A stretch of 64,000 nucleotides of DNA from Anadara kagoshimensis (Eukaryota; Mollusca; Bivalvia; Arcoida; Arcidae): assembly GCA_021292105.1 (NCBI GenBank), contig CM037871.1, positions 38,875,182 through 38,939,181 of the forward strand, in the 5' to 3' direction. Below the pieces are notes generated by a model. It was not told the DNA's origin. It searched no databases and saw only the letters and a program-made list of their open reading frames with translations. The stretch's first letter is position 1; each line of letters opens with the position of its first letter. This document shows positions 5,370 to 59,375 of the stretch, one piece after another. The position numbers and the translations under genes are program-made.

Positions 5370-5606
5370 TCCAGGATTGCTCTGGATATATTTGAAATCC
5401 CATAGTTCCATGTTTCCTTTCAGGCAATTTTATATACACACGTGGCAGGTGTAGCTAGCTAAACAGGAGATGCTTACCCTTCTGGAACACCCAGTCTCAC
5501 TTTCCTGGTGGAATTTCACGTGTCTAACCTGACTTGTCAGTTCCAAAGTTTTTACTTTGCTTCTGGATTGTGATTCGGTTATGGATTAGTATGCTTGTTT
5601 TTTATT
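5370..5606 (+). repeat. Retroelement 3' tail repeat, copy 1
   Basis: Closely matches 58931-59165. It begins with codons for SRIALDIFEIP and a TAG at 5403-5405, then shares TAGCTAAACAGGAGATGC, CCTGGTGGAATTTCACGTG and ATGGATTAGTATGC. It is a 5'-truncated copy of the same retroelement. Confidence 0.8.
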
Positions 5607-5786
5607 TTAAACATTTTATTTCTTTTATTCAACTTCTTTTAAACTATTTAATTGGTTCAAATATTAGGGAACCAAGTAGCTTGAGTTAACTGAAAATGTT
5701 GGTGAAAATTCAAAGAATTGTCTGGTCAAAAACCTATGTATTTAAGTATTAATGACCATGACACTGGGAATCACAGCTTGGATACA

Positions 5787-13875: not shown

Positions 13876-14189
13876 AGTAAAATAAATTTAATAATACTAA
13901 ATTTGACATTTTCTTTTGAAAATTGACTTACAGCCAATTTTGTGTAAACTGTAGTTTTCTCCTAGAGAAGAAATAACCAATCTATTTGGTTGTCTCCCTT
14001 GCATAGTACATGTATAATGATGTCAAGAACATAGTATAATTTCATTTTATTGCTAATTAAGTGGCCTTGCTCTTTTCGGATCTCTTGGCTGTTTTTCGGT
14101 CACTAGCTATAGCTCAGCCCTCTAGCCATACAACTGAACTTAAACTATTTTTGGTTAGTACAGTGTTAAAGTTCCGACAGGTCTATACT

Positions 14190-14442
14190 TTATAAATAAC
14201 ATGAAAGAACTCAACAATCAACAGACTGAAGTCCCACTATCCTGATGACGCCGGGACTTGACCGGCGAAACTAGTCGATCAAAATAAAACCTTCACTTGC
14301 AGTCTGTTGATTGTTGAGTTCTTTCATATTATTCATAATTTATTATTTACGTAGAAAGACTCTATTGAATCCAATTAGGATCCAACAACGACTCTAACAA
14401 CACAATTAAATAACAGGGTGTTGGTTCACTTTATTATGGGTT
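14190..14442. mobile_element. 253-bp insertion carrying a hammerhead-like hairpin
   Basis: The insertion is flanked by a perfect 14-bp direct repeat GACAGGTCTATACT (14176-14189 and 14443-14456), taken as target-site duplication because the related MITE end has this sequence once. It contains the ribozyme-like hairpin (14201-14327) and about 115 bases of AT-rich tail. A short retrotransposed fragment of a Penelope-like element or a retrozyme-like RNA is the most likely source; that is inference. Confidence 0.6.
14201..14327 (+). ncRNA. Hammerhead-ribozyme-like motif in a long hairpin
   Basis: CTGATGA (14242-14248) is followed by stem II GCCGG (14250-14254) / CCGGC (14262-14266), then GAAA (14267-14270), then a very short stem III AC-TA-GT and C (14276), after which cleavage is predicted. 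Stem I pairs ATC (14239-14241) with GAT (14277-14279), opens into an internal loop, then continues as a perfect 27-bp stem between 14201-14227 and 14301-14327. All core residues are present in order, with one unpaired C (14249) between A9 and stem II. Short stem III hammerheads of this kind are reported in Penelope-like retroelements and in metazoan retrozymes. Self-cleavage cannot be judged from sequence. Confidence 0.6.
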
Positions 14443-14459
14443 GACAGGTCTATACTGTA

Positions 14460-15050
14460 CAATGTATAAAAATTCTAATGCAACCATACAAAGCAATTTG
14501 AAAAATCCAACAAAAATTGTGCAATGGTCAAGTGAGCAAATCCTGGCCCAATTGTCCACAAGGAGAGATGGACACAAGTCAGTAAGTCAAGTGAGCAATA
14601 AAGCCCTAAAATGCAATAATTTCATGCACAATTAAAGTGCATCAAGATAACAAAAGCTATGTGAAGAATGTCTTTTTATAGAGAAATTATCAAATGTTAG
14701 TTGAAATGCATGACCATGCCTTAACTGCAGCATGTCAATGTTATGTGAGTAAATAATAAACAATTGATTTTGTCTTTATAGTCAGAAATATAATCACATC
14801 TATCAACATAAAGTTAAATTTACCTTCTACTCATATCACTTAACAGATTCTTTTTATTGAAGTCATCTTCTAAATTAATAAGCGCTGGTATACTAGAAAA
14901 TCTTGACTGGATTCTGGACATGAGTTGACTTGGAGTTTTATTTGACATGGTTTTCAACTTTAATTTGTACATGTAAATGTAGGGGGCTGAGCTAGCCTTG
15001 TGTTGTAGTGTTGTATATACAATGTAGTATATATAATAGTGTGATATATC
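14460..15050. other. No recognised feature
   Basis: AT-rich sequence with no supported gene or repeat. Confidence 0.4.
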
Positions 15051-15782: not shown

Positions 15783-15937
15783 TTTCATGTGAAATCAAAA
15801 ACAAACATACTAATCCATGTTCGAATCACAATCCAGAGATAAAGTAAAAACTTTGAAACTGACAAGTTAGTAGACACATGAACTTCCACCTGGGAAGTGA
15901 GGCCGCATGCTCCAGAAGGGTAAGCACCTCCTTATGT
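15783..15937 (-). repeat. Retroelement 3' tail repeat, copy 2
   Basis: Reverse complement of the same tail. CAAACATACTAATCCATG is followed by the AGTAAAAACTTT block and the AACTTCCACC and CTCCAGAAGGGTAAGC blocks. The terminal codons are not retained. Confidence 0.75.
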
Positions 15938-15939
15938 TT

Positions 15940-16420
15940 AGCTAGGAAAATGAGGGAAATTTCATATATTGCATAAACATGATATTAAATAATAAAATAT
16001 AGTTACCATCCTTGAGATTCAAACCTGCACCCTACAGAAGCCTACAAAGACAGACTATTGATTTACACAGAGTACCTTACCTGGACAAGAAAAAACTTAA
16101 GGAACATGTGGAACACTCAATTGTTCAACCCCTGTCTATAAGTGTTCTGCGATAAATGGATAATTCTGTGTAATTCTATTTCTTGTCACATATCATTTTC
16201 ACCATGAAAATAAGTAAAAGCCAACAAAAATACAAATATAGTCATTCAAGGTCAACAATCAGTAGTGTAACACCTTGGGTTTTGATGTGACATATCATCT
16301 AATCTACCAATATGGTCTGTATAAAGGAGAACAGTGAATGAAACTGAGAATCTGCAAAATACATTATGTAAAGGTAAAATTTGATGGAAACACAAAAATA
16401 TTAAATCATACAACTTAAAC
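15940..16420. other. No recognised feature
   Basis: A CAAACCTGCACCCTACAG block near 16019 resembles a tRNA-like B box, but no A box is visible. Confidence 0.4.
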
Positions 16421-47321: not shown

Positions 47322-47657
47322 TGAATAATGGTGATTAACGTCCTAGTCAAGAATATTTCACTTATATCACGACACTGCCAGCTATAGGCCAAAGTGCATT
47401 AATTTTGCCTTTGCATTGCGCTGATGGCATTATACATAGGTTCTTTAGTGTGCCAAGCCCACCGTGACAGGGGGTCTTGTTTATTTTAAGTTCCCATCCA
47501 AAAGAACCGTGACTTTCATTTCGTAATGCCAAGTGCTTGGCGAAAAGACCAGTTCCTTCCCAATTTCAAGGATTGGTTCAGACCCGGCCGGGGTTTGAAC
47601 CCACAACCTCCCACTTACGGAGTGAGCACTCTACCAACTGAGCTACCGTAGTGGTCA
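47322..47657 (-). repeat. tRNA-derived SINE, full length
   Basis: 3' end AATGGTGATTAACGTCCTAG to head GGGTTTGAACCCACAACC and CTACCAACTGAGCTACCGTA. Well preserved. Confidence 0.9.
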
Positions 47658-56835: not shown

Positions 56836-56948
56836 AATCAAAAACAAACATACTAATCCATGTCTGAATCACAATCTAGAATCAAAGTAAAAACTGACAA
56901 ATTAGGTTAAACATGTGAACTTCCACCAGAGAAATGAGGCCGGGTGCT
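56836..56948 (-). repeat. Retroelement 3' tail repeat, copy 4
   Basis: Reverse-strand partial copy carrying CAAACATACTAATCCATG, AGTAAAAACTGACAAATT, GAACTTCCACCAGAG and ATGAGGCCGGGTGCT. It follows the CR1-like element by about 400 bases. Confidence 0.7.
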
Positions 56949-58969: not shown

Positions 58970-59165
58970 TTCCATGTTCCTTTTACACAATTTTGATTAC
59001 ACACGTGATGGGTGTAGATAGCTAAACAGGAGGTGCTTGCCCTTCCAGAGCAACCTCATTTCCCTGGTGGAAGTTCACATGTCTAACCTAACTTGTCAGT
59101 TCCAAAGTTTTTACTTTGCTTCTGGTTTGTGATTTGGACATGGATTAGTATGTTTGTTTTTGATT
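58931..59165 (+). repeat. Retroelement 3' tail repeat, copy 5
   Basis: Starts within the last codons of the reverse-transcriptase fragment and continues through a conserved non-coding tail (landmarks TAGCTAAACAGGAGGTGC, CCCTGGTGGAAGTTCACATG, ATGGATTAGTATGTTTG). This is the most informative copy because it keeps the upstream coding sequence. Confidence 0.8.
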
Positions 59166-59375
59166 TATAAAGTTTTCAAATTTGCCACATATAAGTTTTA
59201 CATTTTTCAATTTCAATCTAGCAAAACTGAAATCTGAATAACTTTGTTCAGAAATTTAGGGTGTCATTTTGAAGATTGCTTCACGCTCATAAAATCTGTA
59301 TTCTCGTTTTCTCGAAGTTTTGTAGTAAAATGTAGTGAATGAACCCAAGCTAAGTGTTATTAAGATGTAATGGCT

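Follow-up and report, generated by a model that had tools for sequence, protein, structure and literature searches.

Short units with a hammerhead-like motif in Anadara kagoshimensis are probable retroposed leader copies of a Penelope-type element

The Penelope elements described from Adineta vaga and Drosophila have a pLTR-ORF-pLTR organization in which an inverted pLTR lies beside a direct one. A tail is optional on one inverted pLTR, and target duplications of 8-10 bp surround the insert, while solo pLTRs are reported there without target duplications (PMC3846280). Self-priming was proposed, and favoured, for the palindromic head-to-head pLTRs of the Adineta Penelope (PMC3846280). In PAc (Poseidon), from Anolis carolinensis, both target strands are cut and extended, and reverse transcription starts from two sites inside the RNA, which are the ends of the genomic 'tail' (PMC11167929). 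PAc also has an AC-rich stem loop together with this tail, and the in vitro work described shows no strand difference between the start sites. Its hammerhead is located near the start codon, cleaves only with the protein and is dispensable for insertion, the uncleaved RNA being the template; the later steps of Penelope-like integration are presented as awaiting validation (PMC11167929). Hammerheads in these elements are described as minimal, without helix III (PMC6155905, PMC7761336), and their role has been termed a mystery (PMC7761336).

The window, that is the whole stretch of 64,000 nucleotides analysed here, carries a composite unit of 253 bases (14190-14442). It is flanked on the plus strand by two perfect copies of the 14-bp target duplication GACAGGTCTATACT (14176-14189 and 14443-14456), which were read directly and had already been recognized in an earlier note on this DNA. 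Leader positions are numbered from A14239 (position 1), the inferred RNA start. By alignment, the left part of the unit (14190-14232, minus strand) is an antisense arm that begins at site 1 (TTATAAAT...) and copies the leader in reverse from position 100 to position 57. The AAGTCCC at 14229-14235 (minus strand) is interpreted, by reading, as what is left of the antisense hammerhead region, and its overlap with the arm is an alignment ambiguity. The right part (14236-14442, plus strand) aligns as a sense leader copy from position -2 to 205 and ends at site 2 (GGTT). On this strand lie the hammerhead-like motif (14239-14280), identified by reading, motif scan and family alignment, and the sense partner of the 39-bp inverted arm (14300-14338; 28 bp uninterrupted), identified by reading and folding. 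Site 1 (14330-14345), the inferred second start site of reverse transcription, was placed from arm starts and sense ends across family loci. The 'tail' between sites 1 and 2 (14343-14442), with the AC-rich stretch CCAACAACGACTCTAACAACACAA, was delimited by reading, a 3'-pattern search and the locus table. The motif sits at the arm/sense junction, where it forms the start of the sense copy.

A perfect outer stem of 27 bp had at first been described along with the motif. The stem is present, with 28 uninterrupted pairs (14201-14228 with 14300-14327) within a 39-bp arm that has two mismatches. It lies outside the ribozyme and results from an antisense leader copy that is joined to the sense copy head-to-head; its reading as a ribozyme helix was dropped because it is an inverted second copy and because sense-only copies exist without it. 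A sister copy lies 366 kb away (L009/L002) and, with the insertion counted in, aligns over about 2.9 kb at about 94% identity. Its target duplication is that of the window copy and its antisense arm is longer, with about 45 bp more kept, so that the arm of the window copy probably lost these 45 bp after insertion, leaving a compact hairpin. The loss apparently took place between GAAG repeats. Loop complementarity between AAGTCCC and GGGACTT was considered as a tertiary contact and discarded, AAGTCCC reading as an antisense-arm remnant by comparison with L009.

The unit had also been placed inside a MITE end. This is not established: the place 366 kb away carries the same insertion, and the sole MITE sign seen around the unit is one 15-bp inverted pair (14110-14124 with 14980-14994). 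Elsewhere in the window, a dispersed repeat of about 150 bp is present in four copies that are 79-85% identical (15792-15945, 5455-5607, 59019-59166 and 56836-56948), and a weak tRNA match on the minus strand (47585-47648, 31.8 bits) is perhaps a tRNA-derived repeat.

A search of the genome (1.115 Gb) for further copies, as proposed in the earlier note, scored 40 of 204 candidates and yielded 100 matching segments. A 3' pattern of 26 bases, when at most three mismatches were allowed, was found at 78 places of the same genome versus none for the reversed-pattern control; 30 of these tail places fell within loci already in the set, and 18 further loci were added and read. The hammerhead pattern occurred at 82 places versus 8 in the control, 24 of the 82 lying in one array on C14 and some of them being other motifs. 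The loci were gathered in a non-redundant table of 53, which omits nine duplicates (L009, L017, L018, L021, L024, L035, L092, L097 and L105) and the tandem L046. Also outside the table are L001-L008, L048-L052, L055, L057-L059, L061, L062, L064-L078, L080-L090 and L109, which are the same places, fragments, arrays or flanks.

In this table the sense copy ends at site 2 (position 205) in 42 of 53 loci, at site 1 (near 104) in 8 and elsewhere in 3. It starts at -2 to +1 of ATCCTGATGA in 12 loci, 8 of them exactly at +1. Among the 41 other starts, 7 fall at 92-98, near site 1, and the rest are scattered, as expected from 5' truncation and junction loss. No locus out of 53 has a clean start at the predicted cleavage site; the alignment of L045 starts at position 39, which on reading is an internal deletion. 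One or two extra G precede ATCC in some of the copies with a start at the motif, such as L012 and L037; this would fit a capped RNA start, chance flanks being also possible. A target-duplication score of at least 8 was obtained for 33 of 53 loci versus 11 of 183 mismatched flank pairs, while 20 loci showed no clear duplication, and the length of the duplication varies among loci. Across the family, starts recur at ATCCTGATGA and ends recur at two positions (site 1 near 104, and 205 for site 2); target duplications are found, and an arm from site 1, joined head-to-head, is frequent. The preferred interpretation, to which we give a probability of roughly 0.7, is that the unit is the retroposed 5' leader of a Penelope-type retroelement, copied from uncleaved RNA.

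Antisense arms are present in 26 of the 53 loci, and the 27 others stand in the table without one. The arm starts at site 1 (97-119) in 23 of the 26 and ends at -4 to +3 in 6. By alignment, sites 1 and 2 were used once each, on opposite strands, in 22 of 26 arm-bearing loci (21 in the table, plus L063); as for the rest, L026, L042 and L056 are consistent with this pattern with alignments that stop short, and L045 differs. No insertion with both arms at a single site occurs among the 26; this class may be under-sampled because the queries contained the tail. Outside the table, L058 and L059 have an antisense arm from site 1 and a sense part that ends inside a piece of ORF, and L108 has on reading a short antisense arm that is absent from the table. 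Like PAc as described in PMC11167929, the family has two reverse-transcription start sites bounding a tail, an AC-rich region, a hammerhead near the RNA start and an uncleaved template. It differs from that account in that the sites are about 100 nt apart and outside any recognized ORF. In addition, whereas no strand difference is described for PAc in vitro, the sites are here nearly always used once each on opposite strands (PMC11167929). We tentatively propose that the two start sites each served a single time, on opposite strands, in every arm-bearing insertion; a Penelope-type integration complex would then be asymmetric. Reverse transcription of one RNA would have been primed at site 2 on one strand, and that of another RNA at site 1 on the opposite strand, and the 5' ends of uncleaved RNAs, which begin with the hammerhead, would determine the point at which the two cDNAs are joined.

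The same class of element could also have made its arms by self-priming, with one cDNA or antisense template folding back and copying itself (PMC3846280). Head-to-head arms whose junction lies near the RNA 5' end, as in the six that end at -4 to +3, are in line with this mechanism, and it is the one favoured by the authors of that article for Adineta. A simple fold-back does not predict, however, that the second arm starts at site 1 when the first is at site 2, as found by alignment in 21 loci, and we regard self-priming as an unlikely source of the arms that still deserves some weight. It is not exclusive of the leader-copy interpretation, from which it differs only in the arm-making step.

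Several longer copies show what lies upstream of the motif. L052-L054, L056, L060 and the diverged L063 have some 270 bp of pLTR sequence and a partial ORF end upstream of the motif, and these copies end at site 1. L054 has a target duplication and is 5'-truncated, and L022 is a longer copy that runs on to site 2. In a copy on C3, one flank has an inverted pLTR with the tail, and the other a direct pLTR that lacks it; direct and inverted pLTRs with a tail on one are thus found in this copy and in the locus table, as is a short target duplication in 33 of 53 loci. The organization resembles that of the Adineta and Drosophila Penelope elements as described in PMC3846280, with an inverted and a direct pLTR, a tail on one of them and a short target duplication around the whole insert. 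The tail is about 100 bp here versus 31 bp there, a linked RT-endonuclease ORF was not found here, and, in contrast to the solo pLTRs of that account, most short units here have target duplications (PMC3846280). The upstream region of about 270 bp was also considered as a captured host 3'UTR, which was dropped since the diverged lineage keeps the same junction. Two of the longer copies showed further features. The ORF end of L053 (C12:29163295-29164178) contains an in-frame tandem repeat of 54 bp in about 15 copies, and L060 (C4:33659015-33659504) is a 5'-truncated copy that lies directly upstream of a BRCT-domain exon and is broken by an insertion of tRNA-derived appearance (by eye).

The enzyme of the element was sought in several ways. 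The ORF end upstream of the pLTR had no Pfam match, and searches with it returned fragments only and no autonomous copy; L080, which covers 8 kb in front of a 5'-truncated copy, gave no information on this point. GIY-YIG matches were listed at 50 places in the genome, with 150 of 248 candidates scored. None of the 50 lies within 5 kb of a listed tail or hammerhead-pattern place; judged by eye from the coordinates, the nearest is on C19 at a distance of about 14 kb. An open element of Penelope type was read at L109 (C15:54985300-54990900), where an open frame of 762 residues with RVT_1 and GIY-YIG domains stands beside an inverted 648-bp copy at 97% identity; this locus has neither the present leader nor a CTGANGA box and GAAAC in hammerhead spacing. 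Five further GIY-YIG pairs are opposed within 6 kb among the 50 places listed. Since the ORF-end, Pfam and GIY-YIG searches found no reverse transcriptase gene linked to the leader family, it is by its structure, and not by its enzyme, that the family would be a new member of a known Penelope-like kind.

With no linked reverse transcriptase and with most of the loci read being short, the units might instead be a SINE-like, non-autonomous element with its own internal promoter, moved by an unrelated retrotransposon, the pLTR context being secondary. This is rather improbable. The longer copies share the pLTR and ORF end at about 91-97% identity, with one diverged lineage at 72%, and because several of them do so, the long form would be ancestral to a real lineage. 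Neither a poly(A) nor a simple-repeat tail was seen in the loci read.

The motif itself has the parts listed in the earlier note, in the right order. CTGATGA (14242-14248) and GAAA (14267-14270) lie around stem II (GCCGG/CCGGC, 14250-14254/14262-14266), and the CUGANGA and GAAA boxes keep this order in the consensus as well. Stem III has two pairs (14270-14271/14274-14275, with C-TA-G at 14271-14274), and the cut is predicted after C14276, the last base of the GTC triplet. Stem I has three pairs, ATC (14239-14241) with GAT (14277-14279). A scan of both strands of the window for CTGANGA, a 4-6-bp stem, GAAA, a short stem III, NUH and stem I, with one bulge allowed, gave a sole match at 14242 and none in 40 first-order Markov samples. 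A chance hammerhead was discarded, the motif being the recurrent start of a family and absent from these samples. The unpaired C before stem II, noted at first as unusual, is real (C14249) and is no oddity of this copy, as stem II never follows CUGANGA directly: an extra pyrimidine stands between them in 37 of 37 aligned segments (C in 28, T in 9), with no gaps. CTGATGA, stem II, GAAA, an almost absent helix III and a short stem I are as in the minimal type I hammerheads described for Penelope-like elements and Terminons, from which the conserved extra pyrimidine sets the family apart (PMC7761336, PMC6155905).

At the cleavage site, U is found in 47 of 47 letters and is followed by C in 32, U in 11, A in 4 and G in none, in agreement with NUH. 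The G of GAAA is altered in 11 of 46 letters, to A in 10 and to C in 1, and the G to A changes are what CpG decay would be expected to give. In older copies CTGATGA is the best-kept stretch (46 of 48 letters, versus 80 of 108 for stem II and 76-87% for the rest of the leader), while GAAA (49 of 56) is kept no better than its flanks. A second motif, CTGATGAGGAAT..ATTCCGAAACTAGT with its variants, lacks the extra base and was seen in L082 (C5:26438911), L083 (C17:22933675), C2:30673239, C5:55294905, C6:35966410 and C15:41046820. In L082 and L083 its stem I seems to be flush against GAAAC, and it is possibly another Penelope hammerhead family or a degenerate one.

The Rfam covariance search that had been suggested as a check gave no match for the hammerhead families in the window, be it at E<=10, at the gathering score or with 77 bases alone. 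With 73 of 112716 candidates scored, the corresponding genome search gave no match either; it gave none in the control genomes, and it included no Penelope-type positive control. A model built from 29 segments, the window's own among them, scores the window copy at 75.5 bits. For the 43-nt consensus, the hammerhead fold reaches -10.5 kcal/mol (stem III not counted) versus -14.5 kcal/mol for the best fold. In the minimum fold predicted for the window copy, the motif lies within the hairpin closed by the long stem of the arms, and its region does not take up the hammerhead fold. Covariation was assessed on 29 rows hand-picked among family segments. Stem II is 86% paired across them, with three two-sided changes; four change-counting measures were matched by 160, 80, 241 and 104 of 500 shuffles, and the share of paired cells, reached by 3 of 500, is the only measure that stands out. 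Covariation in the motif thus appears weak, and the motif is a candidate ribozyme with a putative cleavage site.

The first interpretation of the locus was the retroposition of a self-cleaving RNA, with a link to Penelope-like elements or to retrozymes. Retroposition of an RNA bearing the motif is well accounted for by the many copies, fixed ends and target duplications. Self-cleavage stays a prediction: there is no Rfam match, another fold is preferred, and the templates held the motif. As the copies keep the motif and none begins at the cleavage site, these templates would have been uncleaved. The link with Penelope-like elements fits better than that with retrozymes, since the loci that were read hold the unit singly or head-to-head, at dispersed places, rather than in tandem arrays.

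A metazoan non-LTR retrozyme would be a small non-autonomous unit spread via self-cleaved circular RNAs of about 170-400 nt. Its type I core, small size and longer target duplications, as described in PMC7229834, are shared by the present units (205 bp, duplications of more than 4 bp), and mussel retrozymes are known. The units depart from that description in the lack of tandem arrays in the loci read, the almost complete lack of helix III and boundaries that are not at the cleavage site (PMC7229834). Copies start at the 5' edge of the motif, and the motif is also found in the longer pLTR behind an ORF end. Tandem repetition was seen only in L046, as a dimer of part of the pLTR, and on C14, as an array of 51-bp units; this origin is judged decidedly unlikely. 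The array on C14 (L081 and L084, G000:C14:71608450-71611900) has a hammerhead-like motif as its unit, with 16 copies at 96% matches in L081, and lies by reading within a copy of the same leader family, between an antisense tail and a sense arm.

A foldback or MITE-type DNA transposon whose hairpin bears a hammerhead-like string by chance would account for the inverted repeat near one end and for the MITE context first described, but it is very improbable, as the inverted repeat stops about 100 bp before the right boundary, target duplications are not of fixed length, terminal inverted repeats are not found at both outer ends, the motif and its spacing are absent from the Markov samples, and sense-only, 5'-truncated and arm-bearing copies occur as a mixture with recurrent 3' ends.

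Under the preferred interpretation, a retroposed Penelope-type leader, transcription would begin at position 1, so that the hammerhead motif would form the first 41 nt of the RNA. The enzyme of the element would open both target strands, and of two RNA templates one would be copied into cDNA from site 2 and the other from site 1. Both cDNAs would run toward the RNA 5' end and then presumably be joined, giving an inverted repeat within one target duplication. The motif would have stayed uncut in the RNA templates behind these copies; it may still be useful to the element at a different stage, as might also hold for the hammerhead of the anole Penelope. The many short copies, with their readable start, stop and junction, may thus be seen as a natural experiment on second-strand synthesis and template cleavage, and they speak for templates that were not cleaved and for two start sites that were used asymmetrically.
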